This document shows, piece by piece, positions 27,792 through 57,623 of a DNA stretch of 64,000 nt. The notes beneath the pieces were generated by a model, which was not told the origin of the DNA, did not search any database, and saw only the letters and a program-made list of their open reading frames with translations. Position numbers and translations under genes: made by a program. The DNA lies in NCBI RefSeq assembly GCF_014200045.1, contig NZ_JACHOV010000002.1, positions 1-64,000 on the forward strand, given 5' to 3'. The stretch comes from Rhizorhapis suberifaciens (GTDB lineage Bacteria > Pseudomonadota > Alphaproteobacteria > Sphingomonadales > Sphingomonadaceae). The first letter of the stretch is position 1. Every line of letters begins with the position of its first letter.

Positions 27792-27826
27792 CCCGGGCGC
27801 AGTTGTTCAAATAGCATGCGTCCGGG
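27792..27826 (+). terminator. Hairpin after the TonB-dependent receptor
   Basis: CCCGGGCGCA (27792-27801) pairs with TGCGTCCGGG (27817-27826), 10 bp with one G-U, loop 15 bases. No T-run follows, so an intrinsic terminator is doubtful; it could protect the 3' end or attenuate. Confidence 0.3.
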
Positions 27827-27895
27827 AATGTTCCAAGATGCGGCAGTGGCTTTGGCTAAACGGCCCAGGCCGCGCACGCGGAGAGTATGTGATCG

Positions 27896-34655: not shown

Positions 34656-34659
34656 GCGA

Positions 34660-35865: not shown

Positions 35866-35870
35866 ACAAG

Positions 35871-36566: not shown

Positions 36567-36576
36567 AAGCCCTTCC

Positions 36577-37542: not shown

Positions 37543-37553
37543 GTATAGATATC

Positions 37554-38429: not shown

Positions 38430-38750
38430 ATGAAGCCTATAACTATTCACCCAGCGCATTGTTGCGTTGCAGTAAGGCTCGCGCAGCTCCCTCCGCCCGT
38501 CAAGCAGCCACCCCTACCGGTCCGGACGAGCCGGTGGCCGGATTGGTCAAGTCGTTACAGATGCCCGCGAGGCACTTCACCCATCGCCTTAATCTCTCAT
38601 CATACCGCATTAAGCTTACCCATATCGGCTTTGCGCTTGCGCTGCGCTGCAAAATCCGGTTTCTTTTCTATCACTTGGATCGCACGGGTCGCAATCGGTG
38701 CATACGGTCGTGGTATAACGATAAAGGGTTAGCAGCATCGGCGTAGGCAT
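38430..38750. other. Divergent promoter region inside the polysaccharide locus
   Basis: About 320 bases between the GT2 pair (minus) and the GT25/wzx run (plus). No coding frame with support and no clear -35/-10 pair found by eye. Confidence 0.45.
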
Positions 38751-41981: not shown

Positions 41982-41982
41982 C

Positions 41983-42696
41983 ATGCTCACCACGTTGAAA
42001 CGCCGCACCAGCCACTGGATCGATCAAATGCGGCTTAGTGAGACCGCGCGGCGGATCAAGGCGGAGCGGCTCACCTATTTGCCGGTACGCAAGCTGGTGC
42101 GCATTGAAGCGGCGCTCTCCGAAATACAGAAGAACAATGTGGCCGGTGATATTGTGGAATTTGGCGTGGCGCTGGGCGGATCGGCCATATTGCTTGCACA
42201 GGCGGCAGGGCAGGGCAGGCGCTTTTTCGGCTTGGATGTCTTCGCCATGATCCCGCCGCCCACATCCGAAAAGGACGACGCCAAATCAAAAGAACGCTAC
42301 GAAACCATAGCTTCGGGGCAGGCGACCGGCTTTGGCGACGATGCCTATTATGGCTATCGCAATGACCTGTATGAACATGTCGCGGCACAGCTCGCCCGCT
42401 TTGGCAGGCCGGTGGACGGTGAGCGCATCAACCTTGTGAAGGGGTTGTTCGAAGAGACGCTTCCGACACTGGCTTTAGATCAGATCGCATTCGCCCATGT
42501 CGACTGCGATTGGTATGATCCCGTGCGCTACTGCCTGGAGGAAACCGCCTGCCGTCTTACACCCGGCGGCGTCATCGTTATTGATGACTATAACGACTAT
42601 GCGGGATGTCGGACTGCGGTTGACGAATTCCTGGCCGGACACGCCGATTTCCATATGGAGCCCGGCTTGAACCCGATCTTGCGGCGCCTCGGCTGA
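41983..42696 (+). CDS. TylF-like (macrocin O-methyltransferase family) methyltransferase
   Basis: This 237-residue SAM enzyme has G-D-I-V-E-F-G-V-A-L-G-G-S as motif I and H-V-D-C-D-W-Y-D-P-V, then G-G-V-I-V-I-D-D-Y-N-D-Y, which contains the metal-binding Asp pair of TylF/NovP enzymes. Mg-dependent O-methylation of a sugar hydroxyl is likely. ATG 41983 has ACGGAGATGAC upstream. Its last 119 bases overlap the convergent polymerase gene. Confidence 0.88.
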   Translation: MLTTLKRRTSHWIDQMRLSETARRIKAERLTYLPVRKLVRIEAALSEIQKNNVAGDIVEFGVALGGSAILLAQAAGQGRRFFGLDVFAMIPPPTSEKDDAKSKERYETIASGQATGFGDDAYYGYRNDLYEHVAAQLARFGRPVDGERINLVKGLFEETLPTLALDQIAFAHVDCDWYDPVRYCLEETACRLTPGGVIVIDDYNDYAGCRTAVDEFLAGHADFHMEPGLNPILRRLG

Positions 42697-43999
42697 GTGC
42701 CGCGGCCCGAGCGCTGAAGAGCGTATAGCCGCAAAGCAATCCGTAAAAGGCCAATCCCTCCACCTGCCAGAAGGGCATGGTGGCGAAATTCATGATGATG
42801 AAGCTTAGATGCGCGGCAATAAGCGTCATCCGTTCCGTGCGGCGTACGCCAACGGCCAGCAGCAACATGCTGAACCACAGGATCAGCATTGCGCCCACGC
42901 CGAACATCCCCAGCTCGTATAATGTGCCGACCAACGTATTGTGGGGATAGACGTTGAATGTGTCGGTCCAGGATTCCGCTCCGAAACCGAACAGATGTTG
43001 GACGGGCGTACCGTCGGCATAGGCGTATAGATACTGACTCCAGATCAGCGGCCGGCCCGACATGATCTGCCGGTCTAATTGGGTGAATTCGCGTGGTTGC
43101 TTGATGAGCGAGCCAGGATCGGAAAGGAAAGTCGCGAGATCGACGAACTTTTCGTGATAAGCAACGGCGACGGCGGCCGCTGCGGCCATCACCACCACCA
43201 ATGCGACAGTCCCGACCGCACGGCGCTGCTCCGGCTTGACATAGTCTGTGAGCACCCCCCAGGCCGCCATAAAGGCGAGTGGCCCAACGGCGAAGATCGC
43301 CGTGCGATAGCCTGCCAGGAAAATGCCGACGAGCGTCGCGATCATGAAGCCGATGCGAAGGCCCGGATGAAGCTTTCTCGCCAGGCATCCCGCCATGAAA
43401 GCGGTGGCAAGGGCGAGGGAGAATGCAGCCTCATGGTTAAAGCCGCCGATCCACACAAGACCGGTTCCTTCCTCCGAACCCTTCGGCATGTTCATCGCGA
43501 GGGATAGCCATTGGAACAACAGCAGTGGTGCGAAGGCCCAAAGGAGCCAAGGCATCACCTTACCCTCTTCATCCTGTCTCAATGCCTCGAAGGTGGCGAC
43601 GATGACTACCGTCAGATAGGCATATTTAATGGCAACACCGAACGCCCCGGTCATGTCATTGTTCAAAATGCCGCTCAGCAGAACCAGCGATATGAGCAAA
43701 TAAATAGGCAATAGCGCGGTCAGCATTAAATGCCGCAATCTTATGACCAACAGGCCGAGACCCGCAAAGGTAATTGATGCGAATGCGTTGCCTGACAGGC
43801 CGGCCGCCAACGGCTTGAACATAAACACATGATAAGCGCCGAAGAGATAACGCGCCCATAACGCAAAGAGCACGAACCGCCCAGGCCAGCTGTGCATCTT
43901 TCTGGCAGCGAAGATCGTCGCAATCAGCAGCACCAGCGTCACCGGCGCCAAGATATGCAGCCCGAAAGACGGGATCTGAGAAGCGACGCCTCCGTTCAT
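42578..43999 (-). CDS. O-antigen ligase/polymerase-like membrane protein (Wzy type)
   Basis: This 473-residue protein has about 11-12 hydrophobic helices. A large loop (about 300-360) contains Q-L-D-R-Q-I-M-S-G-R-P-L-I-W and the F-G-F-G-A-E-S...Y-P-H-N-T pattern of the Wzy_C superfamily. It would polymerise flipped repeat units. The last roughly 40 residues are Arg/Ser/Pro-rich and lie antisense to the TylF gene, so they may be a run-on past a lost stop. Divided from the BY-kinase by 15 bases on the same strand. Confidence 0.82.
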   Translation of the reverse strand: MNGGVASQIPSFGLHILAPVTLVLLIATIFAARKMHSWPGRFVLFALWARYLFGAYHVFMFKPLAAGLSGNAFASITFAGLGLLVIRLRHLMLTALLPIYLLISLVLLSGILNNDMTGAFGVAIKYAYLTVVIVATFEALRQDEEGKVMPWLLWAFAPLLLFQWLSLAMNMPKGSEEGTGLVWIGGFNHEAAFSLALATAFMAGCLARKLHPGLRIGFMIATLVGIFLAGYRTAIFAVGPLAFMAAWGVLTDYVKPEQRRAVGTVALVVVMAAAAAVAVAYHEKFVDLATFLSDPGSLIKQPREFTQLDRQIMSGRPLIWSQYLYAYADGTPVQHLFGFGAESWTDTFNVYPHNTLVGTLYELGMFGVGAMLILWFSMLLLAVGVRRTERMTLIAAHLSFIIMNFATMPFWQVEGLAFYGLLCGYTLFSARAAALSRGAARSGSSRAPYGNRRVRPGIRQPQSDIPHSRYSHQ

Positions 44000-44014
44000 T
44001 CGGCAAGTGCTCCG

Positions 44015-46222
44015 TCAGGCATAATAGCTTTTGTAGGCGCTGTAATAATAGCCGACGTCGCCATAGCCGACGCGGGTCTGTTGAACCATGTCGACCAGCG
44101 TAAGGCTGGCGCCGATGACATGGGCGCCTACTTCGTCAAGCTGGCGCAAGGCAAGCTCGGCGGCCTTGCCCGGCGTCTTGCGCCAGCGGACGAGCATGAC
44201 GACGCCGTCGGCCATGGCGGAAACGACGCGGCTGTCGTCGACCGGCAGCACGGGCGGAGTATCCAGCACGACAAGGTCGAAGCGCACGCGCAATTCAGCA
44301 AGCAACGCAGCGAAGGCGGGGCTGTCCGAAAGCGAGATATTGGTGCTGTCATCCGGACGTTGCGCCAGAACATAAGCGCCAGTGGCTTCGTCCACGAACA
44401 GCGCTTCGTCCAATGTACCCTTTCCGGCCAGCAGCTTGGCTAGCCCTATCGACCGCAGCGGGCTGAACTGAAGGCTGGAGGAACGGCGCCGTATGTCGCA
44501 ATCGACAAGCACGACCTTTACACCGGCCAGAGCAGCCGATCGGGCGAGGCAGATTGCGGTCGTGGTTTTGCCTTCTCCGGGCAGGGAAGAGGTGACCGCC
44601 ACGACAGCCGATCTTGCCTCAGGCAAAGCGAAGTGGATCGACGTGCGCAATCGCCGGAACGCCTCCGCAAATGCGGACTGCGGCTTGTCCACGATGATCT
44701 GGGTCGCCGGGATCCCTGCTTCTTCCTTGCTGAGTTCGGGTAGCCGCGCCGTATCCGGGACGGATCCCAGCGATGCCACGCCCAGCATCTTTTCAATGCC
44801 GTCACTTGTCTCGATACCGCGTTCCAGCAACTGGAGGATAGCGACGGCAATCGACGATGCCGCGAGGGCGGAAACGATGCCCGCTGCGATGAAGATCATC
44901 AGGTTGGGCGTGGTCGGGAATGTCGGAACACCGGCACGCGCGATGATGTAGGAATTACTGCGTTCCAGGCCCTTTTGGGCGCGTGTCTGTTTGTAGCGGT
45001 CGAGGAACGCCAGATAAAGCACACGCGCGGATTCAGCGTTGCGTTCCAATTCCGCCAGCCGCACTGACGCCTTGTTGTTGGCGGCAAGAGTGCCCTCAGT
45101 AGCCGCCAGCGATCCGGCCAGAGACGATGTACGCTGGCGGGCTGCATTGGCCTGAATACTGACATTGGAAATGATGCGCTTCACCTCGCTGTTGATCTGA
45201 TCGTCAAGATCGCGAAGCTCTTCCTGGGCGTTGCGCAGTTCGGGATAGCCGGGGCCATAGCGCTGACGCAGCGAGGCTACTTTGGCGCTCACTTGCGCCC
45301 GTTGAGACCGGAGGGCGCTCACCACGGGAGAATCCAGGGCTTCGCCTAATTCTTCTCCAGTGCTGCCTTGGGCAAGCTGCGCCCTGGCGGTCGACAGCCT
45401 TGCTTCCGCCTCCGCTTGGGACGCGCGGGCCTGGGCTACTTGGCTATTAAGACCCGACAACTCTTCCTGAGTGACACTGCTGCCGGCTGATGCATCGAAC
45501 AGGCCATTGGCCGCACGATATTGCGCCACGGTTGCCTCCGCCGTCTGTACCTGCGCACGGAGTTGACTAAGCTGCGCCTCCAGGAACTTCGTGGCTCGGT
45601 CGGTTGCGCCCGATTTCTCTTCGACCTGCGCCGAGACATAAATTTCCGACAGCGCATTCACCACGCGAGCCGCGGTCGTCGGTGAGATGGACTCAAAATT
45701 GATTGTTATGGCGTAAGAAAAGCCCTCCCTTACCACTTCCAGCCGGGAAAGGAGTATGGTTACCGCCGTTTTTCGCGCCTCATCAGCCTCTATGGTGAAG
45801 CCTTCCTTCAGGGCGGGATTGAATTCAGGATCGTCGATCAGCTTCAGCTTATCCACCACCCGTGCCGCAAGTTGCGGTGACTTAAGGATCTGCACCTCCG
45901 TATCCACGGCCGCAGAATCCGGCGGTACGTCCGGCACCACCTGCTGCACCTGAAGGACCTGTTCGCGTGAACGCTCAAGCGCCACTCTGCCAGTTGCCAG
46001 ATAGCGGGGCTCTGCAAGCAGGTAGGCGGCGGCCGTGGCGATCAACATTATCGCGCTGACGCTCAGGATGACCCAGATCCTCCGCCGGATAATTCCGGCT
46101 ATATGGTGCAGGTCGATGAGCGCGCCTTCGTCCACCGGGCTTGGGGGCCGGGCAGGCCGGTCGATCGGACCATGTGTGCGTGCGTCCATCATTCTGGCCC
46201 TCCCATTCCAGTCAAAGCCCAT
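44015..46222 (-). CDS. Fused Wzz/Wzc-type polysaccharide co-polymerase with bacterial tyrosine kinase
   Basis: This 735-residue protein has a Wzz domain with a TM near 50-70, a long coiled-coil periplasmic stretch (about 180-400) and a second TM near 430-450. The kinase domain has Walker A S-L-P-G-E-G-K-T-T-T near 545, Walker A' V-L-V-D-C-D-I-R-R and Walker B L-V-V-L-D-T-P-P. A Tyr cluster of seven residues lies within the last 17. It controls chain length and export; autophosphorylation on the Tyr tail regulates it. ATG 46222 has AAGGAGGG 9 bases upstream; a TTG at 46255 is in frame. Confidence 0.93.
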   Translation of the reverse strand: MGFDWNGRARMMDARTHGPIDRPARPPSPVDEGALIDLHHIAGIIRRRIWVILSVSAIMLIATAAAYLLAEPRYLATGRVALERSREQVLQVQQVVPDVPPDSAAVDTEVQILKSPQLAARVVDKLKLIDDPEFNPALKEGFTIEADEARKTAVTILLSRLEVVREGFSYAITINFESISPTTAARVVNALSEIYVSAQVEEKSGATDRATKFLEAQLSQLRAQVQTAEATVAQYRAANGLFDASAGSSVTQEELSGLNSQVAQARASQAEAEARLSTARAQLAQGSTGEELGEALDSPVVSALRSQRAQVSAKVASLRQRYGPGYPELRNAQEELRDLDDQINSEVKRIISNVSIQANAARQRTSSLAGSLAATEGTLAANNKASVRLAELERNAESARVLYLAFLDRYKQTRAQKGLERSNSYIIARAGVPTFPTTPNLMIFIAAGIVSALAASSIAVAILQLLERGIETSDGIEKMLGVASLGSVPDTARLPELSKEEAGIPATQIIVDKPQSAFAEAFRRLRTSIHFALPEARSAVVAVTSSLPGEGKTTTAICLARSAALAGVKVVLVDCDIRRRSSSLQFSPLRSIGLAKLLAGKGTLDEALFVDEATGAYVLAQRPDDSTNISLSDSPAFAALLAELRVRFDLVVLDTPPVLPVDDSRVVSAMADGVVMLVRWRKTPGKAAELALRQLDEVGAHVIGASLTLVDMVQQTRVGYGDVGYYYSAYKSYYA

Positions 46223-46550
46223 GGGATGAGGCCCTCCTTGATATTGGTCATGCAAAACGGATTCATGTTTTCAGCCCCACGCATCAACGGTACTCGAATG
46301 CCCATATGACGGCGCGGCGGCGTATCTCGTCCTCGAGTCGCCAACCTGCCCGCTTCTGGTGCGCTGCAACAAGCCCGCTTCGTCGGGGCGTGCCAAAGCC
46401 GCGTCTTTCCGGCCGGCACACGTCCCGAGTCCATTGGGCACGCCCACTCTTAATCAATTCACAACCTCGCTTCCCTTATACGGGATCGGCCGGTCGCCTG
46501 CATCATAGGCCATGGCGTCGGCAGGCCCAGTTCATGGGCAGGAGATCGTC

Positions 46551-46724
46551 ATGGATGTATCTTTTAACTTGTCGGGGCATTCGGCATCGGTAGATCCGTT
46601 CGCCAGCTTCTATCACCGCCGCACCCCACGCTGGCATGACCGCGGAGCGTTGCTGCTCGCCATGGGGACCGCGTTGACCGCGGGTGGCGCGATCATGCTT
46701 TCGGCCCTCGCACTCCTGGCTTGA
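46551..46724 (+). CDS. Small membrane protein
   Basis: A 57-residue protein: a polar N-terminus of about 30 residues (S-F-Y-H-R-R-T-P-R-W-H-D-R) followed by one C-terminal hydrophobic helix. ATG 46551 has a good AGGAGATCGTC site. Located between the co-polymerase and UDP-glucose dehydrogenase genes on the opposite strand. Function unknown. Confidence 0.5.
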   Translation: MDVSFNLSGHSASVDPFASFYHRRTPRWHDRGALLLAMGTALTAGGAIMLSALALLA

Positions 46725-46765
46725 CCGACAGGTCCTGCTGGGGAGGGAAAGGGCCGAAGTCTCCA

Positions 46766-48067
46766 TCATCTACCCACGCCGTGATAAGTGAGCCCAGCCT
46801 TTTCAACGTCGGCTCGTGGATAGATATTGCGCAAGTCTACCAGTACAGGCTGGCCCAGCAGCGACTTGACGCGAGTGAGATCGAGCGCGCGAAACGCGTC
46901 CCATTCCGTGGCGATGGCCAGGCCGTCGGCCCCTTCCATCGCCTCATAGGGACCATTGCAATAGGTGACGTTTTCAAGCACCAGCCTGGCCTGGTCCATC
47001 CCTTCCGGATCGAAGGCCCGGACCTTGGCGCCGGCGTCCTGAAGCGTACGGACTACCGCAATAGCCGGGGAATCCCGCATGTCGTCGGTATTGGGTTTGA
47101 AGGTAAGGCCGAGCAATGCAATAGTCTTGCCGCGCACATCCCCGCCCATGGCGGCAATCACCTTGCGCCCCATGGCGCGTTTGCGATTGTCGTTGACGGC
47201 GACGACAGCTTCGACGATCCGCTGCGGCGCGTCGAAGTCCTGGCTGGTCTTCAGAAGCGCAAGGGTATCCTTAGGGAAGCAGGATCCGCCATAGCCCGGC
47301 CCTGCATGCAGGAATTTGGACCCGATCCGATTGTCGAGGCCGATGCCGCGGGCTACGTCCTGAACGTCCGCGCCTACCTTCTCACACAGGTCCGCGATCT
47401 CATTGATGAAAGTGATTTTCGTCGCAAGGAACGCATTAGCCGCATATTTTGTCAACTCTGCGCCGCGACGGGTCATGACCATCAGCGGGGACTTGTTGAG
47501 ATATAAGGGTCGGTAGATCGCCCGCATCACCTCAGTTGCACGTTCATCGCCCGATCCGATCACTATGCGATCAGGCCGCTTGAAATCGTCGATCGCCGCA
47601 CCTTCGCGCAGGAATTCGGGATTCGAAACCACCGCGACATCGGCAGAAGGGTTCGCCTCACGCACGATCCGTTCGACATCGTCGCCCGTCCCTACCGGCA
47701 CGGTGGATTTAGTGACGATGACGGTAAAGCCCGTCACGGCGCGAGCAATTTCTTCGGCCGCGGCATGAACATAGCTAAGGTCAGCATGGCCATCGCCCCG
47801 CCGCGAAGGGGTTCCCACCGCGATGAACACCGCATCGGCATCCTTGACGCCTTCAGCAAGGTCGGTGGTGAAGCGCAACCGTCCTGCCGCGACATTGGTG
47901 GCCACCAAATGGTCAAGCCCCGGCTCATAGATCGGCATGCGTCCGTCAAGAAGCGCGGCAATCTTTGCCTCGTCCTTGTCGACACACACGATATCATGGC
48001 CAAAATCGGCAAAGCAGGCTCCAGAAACCAGGCCAACATAGCCCGAACCAATCATAGTTAAGCGCAT
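46766..48067 (-). CDS. ugd: UDP-glucose 6-dehydrogenase
   Basis: This 433-residue enzyme has an N-terminal NAD motif I-G-S-G-Y-V-G-L-V-S-G, V-G-T-P-S, N-P-E-F-L-R-E-G-A-A-I, and the catalytic Cys (near 261) in G-P-G-Y-G-G-S-C-F-P-K-D. The C-terminal domain has G-L-T-F-K-P-N-T-D-D-M-R-D-S-P. It oxidises UDP-glucose to UDP-glucuronate in the cytoplasm, suggesting uronic acid in the polymer. The start at 48067 has AGGGGG about 9 bases upstream. Confidence 0.96.
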   Translation of the reverse strand: MRLTMIGSGYVGLVSGACFADFGHDIVCVDKDEAKIAALLDGRMPIYEPGLDHLVATNVAAGRLRFTTDLAEGVKDADAVFIAVGTPSRRGDGHADLSYVHAAAEEIARAVTGFTVIVTKSTVPVGTGDDVERIVREANPSADVAVVSNPEFLREGAAIDDFKRPDRIVIGSGDERATEVMRAIYRPLYLNKSPLMVMTRRGAELTKYAANAFLATKITFINEIADLCEKVGADVQDVARGIGLDNRIGSKFLHAGPGYGGSCFPKDTLALLKTSQDFDAPQRIVEAVVAVNDNRKRAMGRKVIAAMGGDVRGKTIALLGLTFKPNTDDMRDSPAIAVVRTLQDAGAKVRAFDPEGMDQARLVLENVTYCNGPYEAMEGADGLAIATEWDAFRALDLTRVKSLLGQPVLVDLRNIYPRADVEKAGLTYHGVGR

Positions 48068-48585
48068 TGGAAGCGACCCCCTGAGAAAACGCCGTTCCAA
48101 CGAAGTTCGTAGCACCTAGTTCCCGTCCGGGTCTTGCCGGTCATGTGAATAGCCCCTTTTTTGCCAGGTTAAGTAGCCAGTCTACCCGATCGGATAGGTA
48201 GGCGCAGCTTTTTGCAGCAACAATATGTTCATTACGGCGTCCAGTTGGGAACGGTGAACCGGTCTGTCCCTTCGCTCAGGCGCTTTAGAGCCTGTTAAAT
48301 GCAGAATTTTTTGCTGATCCGAGTGTCCACAGCCGGCTCGCTGATTGATTCACACTGCCCAGGAAAGTGGGCCACCGCGACCCCATCGCAAGAGAATCTG
48401 AACATCTAGGCACGCCAATTCAATGGTATTTTGTCAATCCCACCCACTCCCAATAATAATCCAAATCGGTTAGGTCGATGGTATTAATAAACTAATTTAA
48501 CATTATTATAGTGCAGAAATATATTTATTTTGAAAAATAATCTCACTTGTCATTAGAATCGCAATTGGCGGATAGCTGAATTACA
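48068..48585. other. AT-rich intergenic region between ugd and the beta-methyl amino acid-like cassette
   Basis: About 520 bases without a gene. The half towards 48585 is markedly AT-rich against its surroundings (for example around 48480-48545), consistent with acquisition of the following cassette by transfer. It holds the promoter at 48497-48525. Confidence 0.6.
48497..48525 (+). promoter_or_regulatory. Strong sigma-70-type promoter candidate for the four-gene cassette
   Basis: TTAACA (48497-48502), exactly 17 bases, then TATATT (48520-48525). Predicted start of transcription lies near 48532, giving a leader of about 54 bases to the ATG at 48586. No operator-like palindrome overlaps it. 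Confidence 0.6.
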
Positions 48586-49560
48586 ATGATAAAAGCGTGG
48601 GTCTTCGAACAGATGAATATTTCTACTGATGAAGATCCTTCGTCGTTCGACATAGATGTTTGCAGAAAAGAATATGCATGGCGGATCGATCTGGGTACCC
48701 GAGCCGAAGCTTTGGGCTTCTACGGAATATTCTTTAGCGAACACCATTTTGCTGGCGTGCGCGCCTGCCCCTCACCCAGTCTCCTGGCCGCAGCGGTGGC
48801 AAGCCGGACAACGACATTGCGCGTGGGGGTGCTTGGCTGGGTTCTGCCAATGTCGCAACCGTGGCGCCTCCTGGAAGAGATCGCGGTGCTGGATCACCTC
48901 AGTCAGGGCCGTGTGGAAGTTGGTGTTGCGCGCGGATCACATGTGAAGGAAGCAAAGGCGATCGGAATCGCTGAAGATGATGTCCCCGCTATGTTTGAGG
49001 AAGCGCTCGACATCCTGGATAAAGGATGGCGTTCCGTCACCTTGTTACATGAGGGGCGGCATTGGTCATTTGGTCCGGTAGCGATCATACCCAGACCGAT
49101 CCAGATGCCGGCTCCTCCTATTTGGGCGACAGCGCGTAGTGCAGCATCTGCGACTGCGGCGGCGCGGCGAGGCTACAAATTGTGTACGGGGTTCCTGCCA
49201 ACGACGCAAATAAAGCGGCTTTTCGATAACTATCGTGTTGCGGCTGCGGCGGCAGAACAACCCTATGATGCGGAGCGGCTAGCCTTTCGCCGTTGCGTCT
49301 TTGTTGCGCCGAGTGCGACCGAAGCGACCGAGCATATGTATGCCGCACGCGAACAAATGCCGGCCATCGTGGCGGACGATATCATTGCCGGGACTCCCTC
49401 GGATGTCGCGGACCAGATTGTGGCTCAGGCGCGCGAAGTGGGCGCAACGAACTTCGTCGGTTTCTTTGCCGGAAATCTGCGGGATCGGCGATCCATCGAA
49501 CAGTCCTACCAACTTTTTGGTTCTAAAGTCATTCCCAGCCTCGTCAACGCAACTGACTAG
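48586..49560 (+). CDS. Luciferase-like (LLM-class) flavin-dependent monooxygenase
   Basis: This 324-residue TIM-barrel flavoprotein has E-A-L-G-F-Y-G-I-F-F-S-E-H-H-F, V-G-V-L-G-W-V-L-P-M-S-Q-P-W-R-L-L-E-E-I-A-V-L-D, S-Q-G-R-V-E-V-G-V-A-R-G and C-terminal G-T-P-S-D-V-A-D-Q-I. Such enzymes use reduced FMN and oxygen on varied substrates, including N- and C-hydroxylations in natural product pathways. No dedicated flavin reductase is in the cassette (one lies at 24.6 kb). First gene after the AT-rich promoter; weak ribosome site. Its role here is unknown. Confidence 0.88.
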   Translation: MIKAWVFEQMNISTDEDPSSFDIDVCRKEYAWRIDLGTRAEALGFYGIFFSEHHFAGVRACPSPSLLAAAVASRTTTLRVGVLGWVLPMSQPWRLLEEIAVLDHLSQGRVEVGVARGSHVKEAKAIGIAEDDVPAMFEEALDILDKGWRSVTLLHEGRHWSFGPVAIIPRPIQMPAPPIWATARSAASATAAARRGYKLCTGFLPTTQIKRLFDNYRVAAAAAEQPYDAERLAFRRCVFVAPSATEATEHMYAAREQMPAIVADDIIAGTPSDVADQIVAQAREVGATNFVGFFAGNLRDRRSIEQSYQLFGSKVIPSLVNATD

Positions 49561-49606
49561 ATCACTTTTTGCATCCGATGCCAATCTTCGACAGCGGAGA
49601 AAGACT

Positions 49607-49990
49607 ATGAAGGAAAAGGTGCAATACCATCAGGATCTACCGGTCATGAAGGTGGTGGCTGGACATCATCAGTCTGTACCGTTCATTCTTACAAGGGAAA
49701 TGTTCGGTGGCATATCCGTGGAACTCGCCGGTGCAGAGATAAGTAATCTCATAGAATGCCCGGTTGCCGCTGCACATGTTCATGACGTCCCAGAAATTTA
49801 TCTCCTATTCTCTCCACGTCCTGGCGGAGCGGTGATCGCCGTGGAGGTCGAGGACGAAACGGTCATCCTGAAGTCACCCGGAGCACTTTATGTTCCGGCA
49901 GGAAAAGTTCACCGTTTTATTACGAAGAAAGCGGAGGCCGGGAGTTTTTGTTTCGGTTTGTTTTTGTTCGATAAGGATCGATCTTCGTAA
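49607..49990 (+). CDS. Small cupin, MarH-like epimerase candidate
   Basis: A 127-residue single cupin. The metal triad is complete: His57 and His59 in A-H-V-H-D, Glu63 in P-E-I-Y, and His102 in P-A-G-K-V-H-R-F. Size and position beside an aminotransferase and a SAM methyltransferase match Streptomyces MarH/StnK3, zinc cupins that epimerise the beta-carbon of beta-methyl-indolepyruvate. ATG 49607 has GCGGAGAAAG upstream. Its TAA overlaps the next ATG by one base (TAATG), so it is coupled with the aminotransferase. The assignment rests on context; a cupin alone is not specific. Confidence 0.75.
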   Translation: MKEKVQYHQDLPVMKVVAGHHQSVPFILTREMFGGISVELAGAEISNLIECPVAAAHVHDVPEIYLLFSPRPGGAVIAVEVEDETVILKSPGALYVPAGKVHRFITKKAEAGSFCFGLFLFDKDRSS

Positions 49991-51057
49991 TGAGGAATTC
50001 AACGATCACTTCATATGACGTCAATGCTCTATCGGACGGCGATATAGTCCGGCTGCATCTGAACGAGTCGCCCTTCGCACTGCCTCCCGCCGTATCCCAA
50101 GCGCTGGAATGCAAGCTTGAACGACATCTTTCGCTCTATCCTGACAGCGATTGTAGTGCGCTGAGAACTCGTCTGGCAGAATATGTCGGAGTTTCGCCGG
50201 AAATGGTCGCGATTGGGAATGGCATTGACGAGTTGATCTTGTTGACAACGCTCAGTCTCAGCGGAGCAAAGGGTAAAGTAATACTGACTGAGTCCACCTT
50301 TCCCGGTTATGCGTCTTCGGCCGCAGTAGTTGGCGCTGCAACAGAAGTTGTTGCCGTCAAGGATCATGGATTGGTCGCGAACGACATTATCCGAGCGTTT
50401 AAAAGCAATGCCAATATCGCGTTCATATGCAATCCTCACAATCCTACCGGCACCATTCTTTCTTCTGGTGACGTCGATAGAATGGTGGACGCCGCGGAGG
50501 CCGCAGGAATCATCCCTATCTTTGATGAAGCTTATATGGATTATGCCGACGATCAGAGGTCGTCTGCCCTTCGCCATGTTCAGACCGGTCGCAACATTCT
50601 GGTCATGCGCACCTTCTCAAAAGCGTGGGGACTTGCCTCGATCCGTGCCGGATATGTGATCGGTTCGCCTAAAGCCATTGGCCGAATATGGGAGTTTCGC
50701 CGGACGATACCATTCAATGTTAACCGGTTTGCCCAAAAATTAATTCCTGTAGCGCTTGATAATGACGAATATCTCCATTCTACCAGAAACGTAATAAGGA
50801 TCACTAAAGAGGCATTATACTCGTATTTGGATAGCAGAAACCTAAACTATATTCCATCTGTCACCAACTTTGTCATGGTTCATGTTGATCGCGACAGCAC
50901 CTATTTAGCAAAACGGTTGATCGAACGTCATGGAGTCATGATTAGGGACCTGGCTCCATTTGGAATTCCTGGTCATGTCCGGATTTCCATTGGAACTCCA
51001 GACGATATGAAACGCCTTTGCGAAGCTCTTGATGAGGAGATTTTCAGCAATGCATAA
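49990..51057 (+). CDS. Class I/II PLP aminotransferase, HisC-like (MarG-like candidate)
   Basis: This 355-residue aminotransferase has L-N-E-S-P-F at the N-terminus, C-N-P-H-N-P-T-G-T near 147-155, F-D-E-A-Y at 178-182, the Schiff-base Lys211 in T-F-S-K-A-W-G-L-A-S-I-R-A-G-Y, and an Arg for the substrate carboxylate near the end (G-H-V-R-I-S-I-G). It resembles histidinol-phosphate and aromatic aminotransferases. In a beta-methyl amino acid pathway it would deaminate the amino acid to the alpha-keto acid and re-aminate after methylation. It overlaps both neighbours: 1 base with the cupin, 8 with the methyltransferase. Confidence 0.9.
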   Translation: MRNSTITSYDVNALSDGDIVRLHLNESPFALPPAVSQALECKLERHLSLYPDSDCSALRTRLAEYVGVSPEMVAIGNGIDELILLTTLSLSGAKGKVILTESTFPGYASSAAVVGAATEVVAVKDHGLVANDIIRAFKSNANIAFICNPHNPTGTILSSGDVDRMVDAAEAAGIIPIFDEAYMDYADDQRSSALRHVQTGRNILVMRTFSKAWGLASIRAGYVIGSPKAIGRIWEFRRTIPFNVNRFAQKLIPVALDNDEYLHSTRNVIRITKEALYSYLDSRNLNYIPSVTNFVMVHVDRDSTYLAKRLIERHGVMIRDLAPFGIPGHVRISIGTPDDMKRLCEALDEEIFSNA

Positions 51058-52099
51058 ATCCCATGAGCAAGATGAACACGCTTATAAACCACATTGGGAA
51101 ACGCCCGTACCAACACTTCCGGCAATGAACTCCGCGACGATTTTTAACGGATTTGCAGGTGCTTATATAGTCCAGGCATTGGAAAGGCTTGATGTCTGGT
51201 CCGCGTTACAGCAGGCCCCTCAAAGTCTGGATGACTTGGCTGCGCGCCGGGGGACATCCAAACGGGAGTTGAATGCTCTTTTACGAAGCGCTGCCTTGCT
51301 GGGGTATGTCAACTGGGACGCCCAGGTTGCCAAGCTGACGGACGCGGGGGAGTCGTTGGTAAAGGACATTGGTTTTTTCATATGGGGCGTGGGAGGCTAT
51401 GGCCCCTTGCTGCATGCGTTCTCGGCGGACCTCAACGGCCATTCTGATCGCTTAGGGGACATGCCAAGGAATGGAGCGCTTATCGCAAAGGGAGCCGGGC
51501 AGGTGGGGACTGGGCTCATGCTTCCCATTGAACAGGAGGTTATATCGGGAATTGCGTTTTCCAAGGCCGCCGATATCGGATGCGGCGATGGCACGCGTCT
51601 CATCCGGCTGATCAATTCCCGAGAGAACGCTACCGGTATCGGGATCGATATCAACCAGGGAGCTTGCGATCTTGCGGTTCAGAGAGTTCGCGAAGCTGGT
51701 CTTGAGGAACGGCTGAGCATCCATTGCGAAAATATCGTCGATGCCCTGAGCGATCGATCTTTCCCGCAGGTCGACCTTGTGTGCTGCTTCCTTATGATGC
51801 ACGATCTGTTTGCAACATCAGAAGATAAATCACTTGTGGTACGGACGCTTCGGACAGCTTTTCCCGATGCCCGGCATTTTCTCATCGCCGACACCGTGGT
51901 CCAGCCCTGGAGTGAGCATAAGGCGGATTTACCCATCTTCTCGCTGCAGTTCGAATTGGTCCATTCGCTGATGGATACTCCCCTCTACGATCTCGCCTCC
52001 TATCGCCGCGCTTTTGAAGGTGGAGGACTTCGCGTGGTGGAATGCAGACCGTTTGGAGCTCCCTCAACATGGCTATTTCATCTTTGTCCAGATGACTGA
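51050..52099 (+). CDS. SAM-dependent methyltransferase, MppJ/MarI-like alpha-keto acid C-methyltransferase candidate
   Basis: This 349-residue protein has an N-terminal helical dimerisation/winged-helix region (about 25-110) as in PF00891 O-methyltransferases, SAM motif I A-D-I-G-C-G-D-G-T at 174-182 and acidic motif G-I-D-I-N near 198. His251-Asp252 (M-M-H-D-L-F) and His305 (E-L-V-H-S-L) reproduce in kind and spacing the two-His-one-Asp iron site described for phenylpyruvate C-methyltransferase MppJ. In plain O-methyltransferases His251 would be the general base. ATG 51050 lies inside the aminotransferase end, with GAGGAG upstream. Substrate (phenyl- or indolepyruvate) not determinable. Confidence 0.82.
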   Translation: MHKSHEQDEHAYKPHWETPVPTLPAMNSATIFNGFAGAYIVQALERLDVWSALQQAPQSLDDLAARRGTSKRELNALLRSAALLGYVNWDAQVAKLTDAGESLVKDIGFFIWGVGGYGPLLHAFSADLNGHSDRLGDMPRNGALIAKGAGQVGTGLMLPIEQEVISGIAFSKAADIGCGDGTRLIRLINSRENATGIGIDINQGACDLAVQRVREAGLEERLSIHCENIVDALSDRSFPQVDLVCCFLMMHDLFATSEDKSLVVRTLRTAFPDARHFLIADTVVQPWSEHKADLPIFSLQFELVHSLMDTPLYDLASYRRAFEGGGLRVVECRPFGAPSTWLFHLCPDD

Positions 52100-52195
52100 A
52101 GCTGGCTTGACAATCGTTGCGGGGCGCACGTCATCGGTTGGTGGCTCCCATCCGCGGCGATCCATATCCGAACCAAAAATCGTAAGATTTGTCAG

Positions 52196-52537
52196 TCACA
52201 GCTCAAGCGCTTTGTTTCCATTTCGGAGCAGAAGGTCATCGGTTACCGTCATAGTGAGCATGGGGGCATGATCAGGGGGAGCGTCGGAAACCGCGTCGAT
52301 GAACATTGCTCTGGCTTCGGCATCGTCATAGACCATCTTCTGCGCAAATGCGGCCTGCCACGTCTCCTCGTCCGGCCATTCTGCATAGCCTATGAAGCGG
52401 CCATCGGTATCCTGATGCAGGCGCGATCCATAAGAGCCGTATATACGGGTGATTGCCTCGGTTCCGCGTCGCCAAGCGGCGCGAAACTGGTCCTCTTTAC
52501 CCGGATGTACACGCCACCAATAGACCGCAACGAACAT
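52196..52537 (-). CDS. ABM-fold (antibiotic biosynthesis monooxygenase-like/dimeric alpha-beta barrel) protein
   Basis: A 113-residue protein with the short ABM pattern: V-A-V-Y-W-W-R-V-H-P-G-K-E-D-Q-F at the start, G-S-Y-G-S-R-L-H, I-G-Y-A-E-W-P-D-E-E-T-W. Members include cofactor-free monooxygenases and heme-degrading or unknown-function proteins. A strong AAGGAGGG sits 4 bases from ATG 52537. Next to the AraC gene on the same strand and convergent with the methyltransferase. Confidence 0.8.
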   Translation of the reverse strand: MFVAVYWWRVHPGKEDQFRAAWRRGTEAITRIYGSYGSRLHQDTDGRFIGYAEWPDEETWQAAFAQKMVYDDAEARAMFIDAVSDAPPDHAPMLTMTVTDDLLLRNGNKALEL

Positions 52538-52557
52538 GAAACCCTCCTTCTGTCATT

Positions 52558-53406
52558 TCATCCTCGGACGCGCTCTGCCTCAGCATTTGGCAGGAGCCGC
52601 ATTCGCAATGCCGGGGTGAACAATGGAGTAGGCGCCTGAACGAATTGCTGAGGCGTCATACCAATGAACTTTTTGAATTCACGGTTCCGATGCGACTGGT
52701 CAAAATAGCGTAATTCCGCCAGTTGTTCATTGCTCGCGCTGCCCAGACCCCTCAGCACCGACGCCATATCCAGAAAGCGGCTCCGGCGGAGCACCAATTT
52801 CGGGCTGTGGCCAAAATGGGCCAGGCAATGACGTTCGAATTGTCGAGGCGACAGTCCCAGTTGAGCGGCCACATCCTTGACCTGTCGTGTGCTGTCAATC
52901 TGAGCGATGTGCTCAAACATCAGCATGGCCTCGTCCGCTTCCCAACTTCCAATACCACTTAGATGGCGTATGATCTCGTCCTCTACCGTTTGAATGATCT
53001 TGCGCGGTTCGCTGTCATTCAACATCGCCTCATCCAGACATGACGCGCTTTTGGGCCAAAGGTCGGCAAATGGCATGACGGAATCCGCAAACTCATTGGC
53101 GGGTCGCTGAAACAAGGCCTTCCACCCACTTGGACGAAAGGAAATGGCGATCAACTGGCATGGGGATTTCATGTGGATGCGGATAGCCCGGCTAGCCGGA
53201 CCCGCGAAGGTAATACCTGGCAACCTACGCCATGTACCGGGGGATGCCTCTATCCACCAATCGCCCCAGGTGAGGCAAAGAGCGGCCGAATCCGCCAGTG
53301 AAAAGTCGCTCAGTTCGAAACCAGGGGTGTCTGACGAGAATATGTTGTAGCGCGAAATAAAAGGGGAAAGTGCCGCCGATGGCTGGAAGTTGCGCGTCAG
53401 CAGCAT
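52558..53406 (-). CDS. AraC-family transcriptional regulator
   Basis: This 282-residue regulator has an N-terminal effector region (about 1-150). The C-terminal AraC domain has V-K-D-V-A-A-Q-L-G-L-S-P-R-Q-F-E-R-H-C (first HTH) and Y-F-D-Q-S-H-R-N-R-E-F-K-K-F-I-G-M-T-P-Q-Q-F (second). It ends 21 bases before the ABM gene start, so the two form an operon. It may regulate itself, the ABM gene or the adjoining cassette. Start ATG 53406, with AGGAG about 13 bases upstream. Confidence 0.87.
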   Translation of the reverse strand: MLLTRNFQPSAALSPFISRYNIFSSDTPGFELSDFSLADSAALCLTWGDWWIEASPGTWRRLPGITFAGPASRAIRIHMKSPCQLIAISFRPSGWKALFQRPANEFADSVMPFADLWPKSASCLDEAMLNDSEPRKIIQTVEDEIIRHLSGIGSWEADEAMLMFEHIAQIDSTRQVKDVAAQLGLSPRQFERHCLAHFGHSPKLVLRRSRFLDMASVLRGLGSASNEQLAELRYFDQSHRNREFKKFIGMTPQQFVQAPTPLFTPALRMRLLPNAEAERVRG

Positions 53407-53554
53407 TTCCGATCGCCATCTCCTGATCTAAACAGACCCTCCCTAGGTAGGTCCAAGGACTGACGAGCGCAATAGCTAGTAATGTGCCCAATACAAATGG
53501 CCCATGTGCCCCATCCTTGGGGATCAAGCGCTAATGGCTAAATTGAATGCAATT

Positions 53555-54934
53555 TTATTGTTCTACAACCAGATTGGTTACGAAATGCTCTGTTTGGAGC
53601 TTCATTTCGGAAAGGTGCTGATCCACCGAACCAAAGCCTTCTTCCAGGCGGGTGACTCTTTCGGTCATTTTCTCGGTATCCGTCCGGATCGCGGCAATGG
53701 TGCCGGAAATTCCATCTGCGGTCCGCGCTGTTTCATCTACCGACGCTGCGATTAGGGTGACCGTATTGTTCTGCTTTTCCATCGATTGGCGAATATTCTG
53801 TGCCGATTGTTCCACAGCCTGAATAGTTTGGCAGACGGAATCGTTCGTGCTGACGGCCTGATGGGTGGCCGACTGGATGGCCATGATCTTGCTTGCAATG
53901 TCATCCGTGGCGCGTGCTGTTTGAGCGGCCAGCGATTTAACCTCCTGTGCGACCACGGCAAAGCCCCTGCCCGCGTCGCCCGCACGGGCGGCTTCGATTG
54001 TTGCATTCAAGGCCAGCAAATTGGTCTGGCCGGCAATATCGCGGATGAAACCCAGGATCGATTCGATTGACTGGACCTCTCCCGAAAGTTGCCGGGTGTT
54101 TTGCGCCGCCTGTGCCGATTGGGTTGCCGCTTCGGCAAAGATGATGTTGGTCTTTTCAACCTCGCGCTCAACATCGGCGATCGATTGTGCCATCCGGGCC
54201 GCCGTCCTTGCAGCTTCCAACATCGATTGGGAGGACTGCTGAGCCGCCATCGCCACTTCAGACGCGCGTGACAGAGTTACCCGCGCAGCGTCGCTGGTTG
54301 CCGCGGTTTCCCGACGAAGCCTCTCGGATTCGTCCAGCGCCACGTCCAGTTGCTTGGCAACGTCACGCCGGAAGATTTCGCCTGCCTTGCCTCGATCTTC
54401 TGCGGCCTGCTGCTTTTCGAGTTGGGTGAGTTCGGCCAGTATGATTTCCAACTCGCAGGTGGTGAGGCGATATAATACGGGAATTAACGAGTTTCGCTTT
54501 TGTGGTTCGCTTTCATATTTCTGCTGGATCTTCGATCCGATCCGTTCCGCCAGATCGGCCAGTGTCGACACAATGAGAGGACTCGCAACACCGAAGTTGA
54601 AGAAATGCCGTGCAGGGCGGCCCACCTGTCTCACCCATTCGCGGTCGATGGGCGTGGTGAATTTGATGCGAGTCGTCTCTAAAGTTTTTTCGATCCAGAT
54701 CTGCCAATGTTCGGCCGGTATGTTCATGCGATCGGGGCTTTGAAATTCTTTGGCCCAGATTTCTCTGGCAGAATCCATAATGATTTCGGAACATTCCGAC
54801 CAAAGAAGGTGAATGCCGCGTTCGAATTCCCCATTTTCATTGTACAGCCTGGCGCGCATGTCCAGGGCTTCGCCGGACAATTTCTGCAGGTGACTTCTGG
54901 CGGGATTAACCTTGAGAACGCCCGGTGCATTCAT
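53555..54934 (-). CDS. Soluble globin-coupled chemoreceptor (methyl-accepting chemotaxis protein)
   Basis: This 459-residue protein has no membrane segment. The N-terminal domain (about 20-190) resembles globin-coupled sensors: candidate proximal His76 (A-E-H-W-Q-I-W) and, 34 residues later, [13 protein letters not shown], comparable to I-G-x-x-H-x-R-I-G-L in HemAT. A coiled linker follows, then the chemoreceptor signalling hairpin with [20 protein letters not shown] and [17 protein letters not shown]. It probably senses oxygen or another heme ligand and signals to CheA. No che genes are in the window. Start 54934 with AAGGAG. Confidence 0.87.
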
Positions 54935-55016
54935 TCCATCTTCTCCTTACCGGCCGGCATAATAAGGGAAGCGTGGTAAATATTTATTAAAGCCGAGAAA
55001 TTTGCCAGGAAATAAT

Positions 55017-55043
55017 AAAGCCGGATCAATAAGATCCGGCTTT
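55017..55043 (-). terminator. Intrinsic terminator of the cold-shock protein gene
   Basis: AAAGCCGGATC (55017-55027) and GATCCGGCTTT (55033-55043) form a perfect 11-bp stem with loop AATAA. On the minus strand the hairpin is followed by a T-rich run, fitting termination of the csp transcript ending at 55082. It also separates the following chemoreceptor gene. Confidence 0.9.
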
Positions 55044-55081
55044 ATCATCTCACTTACGAGGTGAAGCGTCTTATTTGGCGC

Positions 55082-55885
55082 TTAATCCTGCTTTGGCTGC
55101 AGATTCACGGCGGCATATTTGCCGCGCCGATCTACTTCCAACTCGAAGTCAAGCCGATCACCTTCATTAAGAGCGCTCATGCCGGCGCGTTCCACAGCGC
55201 TGATATGGACGAATGCATCTGGCTGCCCATCGTCGCGCTGAATGAAACCGAAACCCTTCATTGCATTGAAGAATTTGACCGTTCCGCTTGCCTTTTCACC
55301 AGTCAATTGGCGCTGCGGACCGCGATCGCCCCCACCGGGGCCACCGAAACCGCCACGTTCTCGCGGGGCTGGAGCAGCGCGCTCTTCCACCGGCAGTGGC
55401 TCGCCCTCGATCTTCAGGTCGGTGGCAGAAACCTTGCCGCCCCTGTCAACCAGAGTGAATTCCAGGGGCTGACCTTCCGCAAGGCCCGCAAGCCCCGCCT
55501 GTTCGACAGCGCTGATGTGAACGAATACGTCCTCGCCGCCATCGTCCCGGACGATGAACCCAAAACCTTTCTGGCCGTTGAAGAATTTTACGACGCCTTT
55601 GCCTTCGCCCACAACTTGAGCTGGCATTCCGCGACCGCCACCACCAGCACCGCCTCGAGGCCCGCCGAAACCGCCTCGATCGCCGCCGCCGAAACCGCCC
55701 CGGTCGCCGCCGAAGCCGCCGCGATCACCGAAACCGCCACCGCCAAAACCGCCACGATCACCGCCGAAGCCTCCGCCATAACGGCCGCCGCCGCCCTGAT
55801 CCGAATACCCGCCGTAATTTTCGTCGCCGAAACCGTCCCGCTTGTCCTTGCCGCGACCGCCGCGGCGTCCTCTGTCAAAACTCAT
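55082..55885 (-). CDS. Protein with Gly/Arg-rich N-terminus and two cold-shock domains
   Basis: This 267-residue protein has an N-terminal RGG-type tract (about 6-88: many G-G-F-G, R-G-G-F-G-G units). CSD1 at about 95-160 contains V-V-K-F-F-N-G-Q-K-G-F-G-F-I and V-F-V-H-I-S, and CSD2 at about 198-265 contains T-V-K-F-F-N-A-M-K-G-F-G-F-I and A-F-V-H-I-S. The RNP1 and RNP2 RNA-binding motifs are intact in both. RNA chaperone or post-transcriptional regulator role likely. Double-CSD proteins are common in alphaproteobacteria; the long RGG tract at the N-terminus is less usual. Confidence 0.92.
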   Translation of the reverse strand: MSFDRGRRGGRGKDKRDGFGDENYGGYSDQGGGGRYGGGFGGDRGGFGGGGFGDRGGFGGDRGGFGGGDRGGFGGPRGGAGGGGRGMPAQVVGEGKGVVKFFNGQKGFGFIVRDDGGEDVFVHISAVEQAGLAGLAEGQPLEFTLVDRGGKVSATDLKIEGEPLPVEERAAPAPRERGGFGGPGGGDRGPQRQLTGEKASGTVKFFNAMKGFGFIQRDDGQPDAFVHISAVERAGMSALNEGDRLDFELEVDRRGKYAAVNLQPKQD

Positions 55886-56156
55886 GCCCTGTTAGTCACT
55901 TTCGCTTCGTCCAAACCAAAATTAGGATATGTATGACGGACGAAAGTCACACAATACCCGCCGCAAAAGCAAGCGGCATAGGATTCGGTATAGCGGATTT
56001 TTACCATTGGCGCGACTTATTTTACTTCAGCGTGGCTCGAATATCACAGAATCGGCTTTATTCGGCCGCAGGGCCGATCGCCCAGGAGCGCCATTGGTCT
56101 GATCTTGCAGCGATTTGGAACTTGCGGACGGCCTGCGCTTTGGGCAATGCAATTCC

Positions 56157-56966
56157 ATGATCGAAATATTTGGTATTTTCGCGGACCCGGCCGTCTGGGC
56201 CGCCCTGACAGCCCTTGTCGTCATGGAAGTCGTGCTTGGCATCGACAATCTGATCTTCATTTCCATCTTGTCGAACAAACTGCCCGCGCACCAGCAAAGC
56301 AAGGCGCGGCGGGTGGGGATTGCCCTCGCGCTGGTGCTGCGGCTGGCGTTGTTGTCGGGCATTGCCTGGCTCGTGGGTCTGACGGCACCGATCTTCGACC
56401 TCGGCCTTTCCGGGCCCATCGACAAGCTGACGGGGCATCCGGTCTATGAAACCGCCTTTTCGGCGCGCGATCTAATCTTGATCGCGGGTGGACTCTTCCT
56501 GCTGTGGAAAGCGACGAAGGAAATTCATCACAATATGGATGTCGAGGCTTCCGGAAACCTGCTCGACAAAAAGGGCCATGCCGCAATCAGCTTCGGGTCG
56601 GTGATTTTTCAGATATTGCTGTTGGACATGGTCTTCTCAATCGACTCCATCCTCACCGCTGTCGGCATGACCGATCACCTTCCGGTGATGGTGATCGCCG
56701 TCGTCGTGGCTGTGGCCGTCATGCTGCTGGCCGCTGATCCTCTCGCACGCTTTATCGACCGCAACCCGACGGTCGTCATGCTGGCCTTGGGCTTCTTGCT
56801 GATGATCGGTGCGGTACTCATCGCCGATGGATTTGGCATCCATGTGCCCAAAGGCTACATTTATGCAGCGATGGCTTTTTCGGCCTTTGTGGAAATGCTC
56901 AACATTATGGGCCGCCGGGCACGCACGAAGAAGGTTCCCCAGGAAACCGCCGAAACGGTTCATTGA
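56157..56966 (+). CDS. TerC-family integral membrane protein
   Basis: This 269-residue membrane protein has about seven hydrophobic helices. The paired TerC motifs are present: [16 protein letters not shown] in helix 1 and [16 protein letters not shown] in the second half; their acidic residues probably bind metal. TerC proteins export Mn(II) or assist membrane protein metalation. ATG 56157 starts the domain. The upstream 240 bases (towards csp) hold the divergent promoters. Confidence 0.92.
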
Positions 56967-56997
56967 GTTGTACCGCACGCCAGCCTAAAGAGAGGTC

Positions 56998-57615
56998 ATG
57001 ACAGTCCATTTCCACGAAGAAGACCTTCCCGAAGGCGTGCTCGCCGAAGGGCCGGTCGCGGTAGATACCGAAACCATGGGCCTGCTGACCCACCGCGACC
57101 GTCTGTGCGTGGTTCAGATAAGCGACGGCCGTGGTGATGAGCATCTTGTTCGCTTTGGGCCGGGCAGCAGCTATGCCGCGCCTAATTTGAAGAGCGTGCT
57201 CGCTGATCCGGGCCGGCTTAAGCTCTATCATTTCGCCCGCTTCGACATCGCCGCGATCCAGCATTATCTGGGTGTTCTTGCAGCGCCCGTTTATTGCACG
57301 AAGACGGCTTCCCGTCTGATACGGACGTACACCGACCGCCACGGGCTGAAGGAAATCGTGCGGGAGCTTCTGGGCCAGGAAATTTCAAAACAGCAGCAAA
57401 GCTCTGACTGGGGAGCCCCGGAACTCAGCGATGCGCAGAAGGATTATGCCGCATCGGACGTGCGCTATTTGCACTTGCTGCGTGCCGAGCTGGACAAGCG
57501 GCTGGCCCGCGAGGGGCGAATGGAACTCGCGCAGGCCTGCTTCGATTTTCTGCCGCACCGGGCGAAGCTTGATCTCGCGGGCTGGTCCGATATCGACATA
57601 TTTGCGCATATTTAG
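56998..57615 (+). CDS. rnd: RNase D-type 3'-5' exonuclease (DEDDy)
   Basis: A 205-residue stand-alone DEDDy nuclease domain: V-D-T-E-T-M-G-L (Exo I, D-x-E), H-F-A-R-F-D-I-A (Exo II Asp), and Y-A-A-S-D-V-R-Y-L (Exo III Y-x3-D). The HRDC domains of E. coli RNase D are absent, which is usual for the short alphaproteobacterial enzyme. It trims tRNA or other RNA 3' ends. ATG 56998 has AAGAGAGG. It lies upstream of lptC by 8 bases, a common sphingomonad gene order. Confidence 0.92.
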   Translation: MTVHFHEEDLPEGVLAEGPVAVDTETMGLLTHRDRLCVVQISDGRGDEHLVRFGPGSSYAAPNLKSVLADPGRLKLYHFARFDIAAIQHYLGVLAAPVYCTKTASRLIRTYTDRHGLKEIVRELLGQEISKQQQSSDWGAPELSDAQKDYAASDVRYLHLLRAELDKRLAREGRMELAQACFDFLPHRAKLDLAGWSDIDIFAHI

Positions 57616-57623
57616 GACGAGGG

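Follow-up and report, generated by a model that had tools for sequence, protein, structure and literature searches.

A candidate operon making a free aromatic amino acid with a beta-methyl group, or the corresponding keto acid, in the sphingomonad Rhizorhapis suberifaciens

Four closely packed genes of Rhizorhapis suberifaciens are interpreted, with a probability of about 0.74, as an operon whose product would be a free, beta-methylated aromatic amino acid or the corresponding keto acid. They lie on the plus strand of contig NZ_JACHOV010000002.1 (48586-52099, about 3.5 kb), within a stretch of 64,000 nucleotides analysed as a whole and termed the window. The genes encode a luciferase-like monooxygenase (LLM), a cupin, an aminotransferase and a methyltransferase (Table 1). 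A three-enzyme kit of Streptomyces adds an extra methyl group to tryptophan. The core of the window operon is a real cassette of this MarG/MarH/MarI type outside the actinomycete branch, rearranged, accompanied by the monooxygenase and without a nonribosomal peptide synthetase (NRPS) partner in sight. A beta-methyl amino acid cassette of cupin, aminotransferase and methyltransferase had been named in the original prediction, and is supported by trees, PDB matches, conserved residues and fold.

Table 1. Features of the four-gene run, in window positions.
Feature	Position	Strand	Length	Basis
A+T-rich leader; three matches to the sigma-70-like consensus, of which two overlap	48484..48585	+		consensus only
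Luciferase-like monooxygenase (LLM)	48586..49560	+	324 aa	PF00296
MarH/StnK3-type cupin, predicted beta-methyl-alpha-keto acid epimerase	49607..49990	+	127 aa	matches to PDB 6j4b and 7eqk
MarG/StnR-type pyridoxal phosphate (PLP) aminotransferase, HisC superfamily	49990..51057	+	355 aa	tree, shared insertion, motifs
Predicted MarI/StnQ1/MppJ-type alpha-keto acid C-methyltransferase	51050..52099	+	349 aa (ATG at 51050)	phmmer, tree, model

The cupin has no match in Pfam (E up to 0.001) or NCBIfam (E up to 0.01). Its only sequence matches in the PDB up to E 1 are 6j4b (8.5e-35) and 7eqk (5.3e-33), both 51% identical over 113-115 residues. The PDB titles describe 6j4b as MarH, 'an epimerase for biosynthesis of Maremycins', and 7eqk as 'a novel non-heme iron epimerase/lyase'. 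The latter is taken to be StnK3, because it does not differ, over the aligned stretch, from the cupin of a Streptomyces albus locus (L024) and because the identities between this locus and L019, whose cupin is identical to MarH over the aligned stretch, reproduce published figures. Methyltransferases, cupins and aminotransferases of the two loci share 63.8, 82.4 and 63.5%, equal to the 64% for MarI/StnQ1, 82% for MarH/StnK3 and 64% for MarG/StnR in the publication (PMC4742848). His57, His59, Glu63 and His102, the predicted metal ligands of the window cupin, are kept in all 25 aligned rows. Foldseek returned MarH or the 7eqk series in rows 1-8 for the cupin model. Since the folds superpose only loosely (rmsd 9.9 over 113 columns, TM 0.66 with 7eqk), the assignment to the MarH/StnK3 type is based on sequence. 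The cupin tree, with long branches and no outgroup, is uninformative alone, and a viral library yielded remote cupins only.

The aminotransferase belongs to Aminotran_1_2 (Pfam, 5.5e-52), with Lys211 as the predicted PLP lysine. Its best NCBIfam model is hisC (TIGR01141) with 250 bits, under the curated cut-off of 276.55. A tree was calculated from 23 cassette aminotransferases and ten HisC rows, the latter comprising the seven best matches from 150 genomes of the phylum other than its own, a HisC-like gene of its own genome (contig C4, 27% identical) and two PDB chains. The window enzyme joins the cassette enzymes with a support of 100/99, branching outside all 23. All 24 cassette-type rows, counting that of the window, have an insertion of two residues before PF(N/S), which none of the ten HisC rows has. 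This grouping and the shared insertion identify a MarG/StnR-type aminotransferase in the operon. The window enzyme has 24 positions in common with at least 20 of the 23 cassettes and at most one HisC row. The motif RLHL occurs in the window enzyme and 22 of the 23 cassettes (the start of the L017 protein was lost in trimming), and NPHNP in all but three cassettes, which carry HPHNP.

The methyltransferase matches Methyltransf_31 (Pfam, 8.3e-10); TIGR04543 (ketoArg_3Met), its best NCBIfam model, scores 76.5 bits, far under the cut-off of 425. A phmmer search of the PDB placed MppJ on top (1e-24), followed by SgvM (1.1e-8) and MrsA (4.8e-5). His251, Asp252 and His305 align with the HD...H of MppJ, its iron ligands. 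Both histidines are conserved in 24 of 24 rows, MppJ among them, and the aspartate in 23; all three are predicted to bind the metal. The tree, calculated without the very distant row L003_11095, unites the window enzyme and 20 cassette methyltransferases at 100/100 against MppJ and L003_8899, which places a MarI/StnQ1-type C-methyltransferase in the operon. The window enzyme branches outside all 20 (96/89). Among 72,556 plasmid records, distant relatives (below 60% identity) were found in 16, twelve of them from Streptomyces, with 23-32% identity among the 15 matches listed.

An AlphaFold model of the methyltransferase has a mean pLDDT of 83.1, low at residues 289-299 directly before His305. 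MppJ, MrsA and SgvM chains occupy rows 1-24 of the Foldseek result and rows 1-17 of the VIA result. The VIA Z score is 34.6 for MppJ (rmsd 2.5, 314 aligned), 32.1 for MrsA (rmsd 3.3, 319 aligned) and 28.7 for SgvM (rmsd 4.7, 316 aligned). TnmJ (25.8) comes after these alpha-keto acid C-methyltransferases, and the highest-scoring named O-methyltransferase is MmcR (23.4). Fold and aligned metal-ligand positions agree with an alpha-keto acid C-methyltransferase. A grouping with plain O-methyltransferases, named in the original prediction as a possible refutation, was ruled out by phmmer, Foldseek, Z scores and tree; such enzymes are nearest neither by fold nor by sequence, while fold alone cannot tell the methylated atom. 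The companion question, whether cupin and aminotransferase have closer relatives in another pathway, led back to the MarH/StnK3 and MarG/StnR types as the closest found.

By analogy to StnR, StnQ1 and StnK3, the aminotransferase would deaminate an aromatic L-amino acid to the alpha-keto acid. The metal-dependent C-methyltransferase would then transfer the methyl group of S-adenosylmethionine to the beta carbon, yielding the (R)-configured keto acid, which the cupin would epimerise to (S). Re-amination by the aminotransferase would give the (2S,3S)-beta-methyl amino acid. An aromatic substrate is favoured because the methyltransferase branch sits between MppJ, with phenylpyruvate in the structure 4kic, and the clade holding MarI- and StnQ1-type enzymes, StnQ1 acting on indolepyruvate (PMC4742848). 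The LLM, first in the gene run, may add oxygen to the product or to one of the intermediates, for example by a flavin-peroxide attack on the keto acid. A more specific and rather doubtful proposal is that it oxidises the beta-methyl aromatic keto acid delivered by the other three enzymes, as a stand-alone, assembly-line-free pathway of an alphaproteobacterium. An oxidative decarboxylation would then lead to an alpha-methyl arylacetic acid, e.g. alpha-methyl-indole-3-acetic acid. If this is true, the product would be an antimetabolite or an auxin-like signal; to our knowledge, no known cassette product resembles it.

The gene layout is in line with the original prediction of four tight genes, the last three overlapping, behind an A+T-rich promoter stretch. 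LLM and cupin genes are separated by 46 nt, whereas cupin and aminotransferase genes overlap by 1 nt and aminotransferase and methyltransferase genes by 8 nt; the catalytic residues proposed for the three core enzymes were all found at their predicted places. Three sigma-70-like matches lie on the plus strand in 48484-48559, including TTAACA-17-TATATT at 48497. The four genes are presumably co-transcribed. On both strands of 48116-52600, ten such sites were counted against 4.2 +/- 2.0 in shuffled sequences, consensus matches that are no evidence of use. Terminator-like sites are fewer than in shuffles (2 versus 4.6), and the consensus scan detected none in the LLM-cupin gap (49561-49606).

The LLM belongs to the luciferase family (PF00296 Bac_luciferase, 5.4e-44; 151.3 bits, gathering score 27.9) and reaches no subfamily cut-off of NCBIfam. 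Its best PDB match is 7bip (5.2e-28), presumably RslO1, a protein of the same family. Matches at 1e-20 occurred in 41 of 249 genomes of the bacterial family, its own included, the best other being 41% identical over 234 residues. Full-length relatives are 35-37% identical. The window protein lacks about 35 residues which these nearest relatives carry before the GTP motif, near the C-terminal third. Besides the three relatives described below, a fourth (L070) has a flavin reductase domain and genes for riboflavin in its vicinity. Viral contigs were searched as well, and no relative was confirmed there. The LLM looks like a recruit to the operon.

A cupin scan of the genome contigs of 84,980 species confirmed 24 loci, all from actinomycetes, two of them in one Allokutzneria genome; the scan may miss diverged relatives because its patterns were built from three sequence rows only. 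An aminotransferase gene adjoins the cupin gene in 23 of these loci, a methyltransferase gene precedes it within 5 kb in 21, and all three are present in 20, among them L019 and L024. Three loci (L005, L013, L018) lie on contigs ending 0.3 to 3.3 kb before the cupin gene, the remainder being without a methyltransferase. Searches of whole genomes recovered the cupin in one of 397 genomes of the family, one of 385 of the class and, by profile, one of 123 of the order, each time the own genome; these samples and that of the phylum overlap and were drawn from larger groups. Two of 398 phylum genomes were positive, the own genome and one whose weak match (E 6e-4, 59 residues) was discounted as that of a generic cupin. 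The methyltransferase was detected at E 1e-10 in the own genome only, among 229 of the phylum. The 72,556 plasmid and 50,697 phage records contained no match to the cupin.

Two variants among the actinomycete loci were observed. Micromonospora orduensis (L003:8899-10408) has an MppJ-type methyltransferase, grouping with MppJ at 100/100, directly 5' of a MarH-type cupin, and no match to a cassette aminotransferase in the locus; the pair is perhaps a beta-methylphenylalanine version. The loci L007 (7829-12871) and L026 (7738-13117) carry an FAD-dependent (DAO) oxidoreductase 5' of the methyltransferase and, 3' of the aminotransferase, an alpha/beta hydrolase (L007) or a P450 (L026). No NRPS was among the two proteins checked in each of them.

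The maremycin enzymes MarG/MarH/MarI and the streptonigrin enzymes StnR/StnK3/StnQ1 are the same three enzymes as those of the window, with a common tree grouping and conserved catalytic residues. In contrast to the cupin, aminotransferase and methyltransferase are only 35-36% identical to theirs. The window order LLM-cupin-aminotransferase-methyltransferase differs from their order methyltransferase-cupin-aminotransferase, reported as stnQ1-stnK3-stnR in the streptonigrin work (PMC4742848). The latter order and an NRPS partner, both absent from the window, are the anatomy of the known examples, not a catalytic need. Further differences are the sphingomonad host, the co-encoded LLM and a genome without NRPS condensation domain. 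MppJ (mannopeptimycin) is the closest PDB entry to the window methyltransferase by sequence and fold, yet 27% identical and outside the clade formed by window and cassettes. MrsA is likewise a proteobacterial alpha-keto acid C-methyltransferase, but uses ketoarginine and is 18% identical. In Pseudomonas syringae it reportedly stands behind the free beta-methyl amino acid 3-methylarginine; we know of no MarH-type cupin associated with either. SgvM shares the fold, at 20-21% identity, and acts on an aliphatic keto acid. Its metal is held by His244 and His296 (PMC10502145), a spacing of 52 compared with 54 in the window enzyme. Among the matches listed from the open-access literature, no such cassette has been described in Proteobacteria or Sphingomonadaceae, subscription journals being mostly outside the coverage.

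Several observations weigh against the proposed operon function. With identities of only 32-39% and long, basal branches for both aminotransferase and methyltransferase, a shift in substrate is conceivable. The aminotransferase retains nine HisC-type positions (in at least nine of ten HisC rows and at most two cassettes), and its BLAST lead is small, with 175-228 bits for cassettes and 173-179 bits for seven proteobacterial HisC2 rows. Support for the methyltransferase grouping falls to 83/40 once the distant row L003_11095 is included. A terminator-like consensus match is situated near the 3' end of the cupin gene (49935-49959). LLM matches exist in only four of the 24 actinomycete loci (L003, L013, L014, L017), are weak (E 7e-10 to 7e-7) and belong, by eye, to other LLM groups. 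Self-resistance through an extra TrpRS or TyrRS was considered and rejected: the genome has two tRNA-synt_1b genes, as expected for one TyrRS and one TrpRS, and no extra copy of either; other synthetases were not searched.

It is very improbable that the genes are ordinary, with the aminotransferase as a second histidinol-phosphate transaminase, the methyltransferase as a plain O-methyltransferase and the cupin as a generic one. HisC as best NCBIfam model and the generic Methyltransf families in Pfam would agree with it; trees, shared insertion, specific PDB matches and the co-occurrence of three enzymes contradict it, as does the separate HisC-like gene on contig C4. For the aminotransferase, a HisC paralog was ruled out by the trees, the insertion and the below-cut-off score. 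An identical reaction course starting from an alpha-keto acid that is not aromatic, like alpha-ketoleucine (SgvM) or 2-ketoarginine (MrsA), is distinctly unlikely. MrsA and SgvM come next after MppJ by fold, the window enzymes are basal on long branches, and the best NCBIfam model of the methyltransferase is ketoArg_3Met, at the sub-threshold score given above. Its position between MppJ and the clade with MarI- and StnQ1-type enzymes, however, and a PDB match to MppJ far above those to SgvM and MrsA speak for an aromatic substrate.

It is somewhat unlikely, though a serious alternative, that the core works as described and the LLM merely shares the gene run, serving another reaction such as catabolism. 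Three of its nearest relatives have catabolic-looking neighbourhoods, comprising protocatechuate dioxygenase and a GMC oxidoreductase, a Rieske protein and fumarylacetoacetate hydrolases, and a P450, an FAA hydrolase and a glyoxalase, respectively; the 46-nt gap to the cupin gene also sets it apart from the overlapping genes. The common strand, the first place after the A+T-rich leader and the gap free of terminator-like sites argue for a membership in the operon. The LLM is no common catabolic gene of the family, because no close relative was found in the 249 genomes. Rather unlikely as well, though worth consideration, is that the beta-methyl amino acid is incorporated at another place, into a cyclodipeptide or conjugate or by a non-NRPS ligase, given that it serves as a building block in maremycin and streptonigrin. 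A Pfam check of 15 proteins from seven actinomycete loci revealed, in four of them (L004, L008, L010, L012), a protein 1-2.5 kb from the cassette that combines condensation, AMP-binding and carrier domains. The proteins checked in the others were an FAD oxidoreductase and a hydrolase (L007), a glyoxalase and a transposase (L020), and an FAD oxidoreductase and a P450 (L026). The window harbors an AMP-binding enzyme (27896-29575), but 19 kb from the operon, separated by a tRNA and the exopolysaccharide cluster. No assembly gene adjoins the four genes. The 34 contigs of the own genome, whose completeness is rated at 100%, contained no match to the condensation domain PF00668; a control search was positive in four of 14 known genomes. 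The genome-wide search did not extend to cyclodipeptide synthases or other ligases. The predicted absence of NRPS is borne out for condensation domains, and the gene anatomy backs the claim of a stand-alone pathway with the LLM in the same run.

With the operon read in this way, a cassette well studied in actinomycetes reaches into the Proteobacteria. The window branch can help to root the family because it lies outside the 23 aminotransferase and 20 methyltransferase rows of actinomycetes. With four genes on 3.5 kb and no NRPS partner in sight, the pathway could be rebuilt in E. coli. This might open a further way to make beta-branched amino acids under stereocontrol, and would allow the action of an LLM on a beta-methyl keto acid to be tested.

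Third-codon-position G+C is 0.48-0.57 in the four genes, compared with 0.60-0.79 in 18 other open reading frames of the window, some of which are not real genes; for the three genes next downstream the value is 0.60-0.61. This fits an acquisition of the operon from outside, though not lately from a G+C-rich actinomycete. A recent transfer from there is unsupported because the operon is low in G+C (0.49-0.57) and the actinomycete reading frames picked are mostly at 0.75-0.99 in third codon positions. No repeats resembling insertion ends were found around the operon. The host was predicted to be a sphingomonad, in agreement with the window LepA, which has 86% identity to the Sphingomonas parapaucimobilis protein; the UDP-glucose dehydrogenase carries less weight, with 74% identity to Sinorhizobium and 73% to Sphingomonas.

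This dehydrogenase gene (46766-48070, minus strand), part of the exopolysaccharide cluster, is the upstream neighbour and points away from the operon. Downstream, an ABM-domain gene (52196-52537) and an AraC-type regulator gene (52558-53406), both on the minus strand, point towards it. Contig L065 of a same-genus genome (G075) corresponds to 52196-58807, with ABM 84% and AraC 53% identical and the cold-shock and TerC neighbours kept. On that contig the gene facing ABM is the cold-shock gene, and the cassette is absent from the space between the two. This was rejected as a clean empty site and is regarded as a rearranged one, because AraC-ABM is inverted, the MCP gene was not found and the UDP-glucose dehydrogenase side is off the contig; the rearrangement is local, beside the operon.

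The exopolysaccharide-type cluster (33405-48070) encodes glycosyltransferases, a polysaccharide synthesis/flippase-type protein, a TylF-type methyltransferase, a Wzz/kinase protein and the UDP-glucose dehydrogenase, as well as a 473-aa product without Pfam match (42578-43999, minus strand). At 25441-29575, a TonB-dependent receptor gene and, 115 nt behind it, the AMP-binding gene (acyl-CoA ligase type) share one strand. The reading frame at 55082-55885 (minus strand) encodes a protein with two cold-shock domain matches, over eight imperfect 24-nt repeats.

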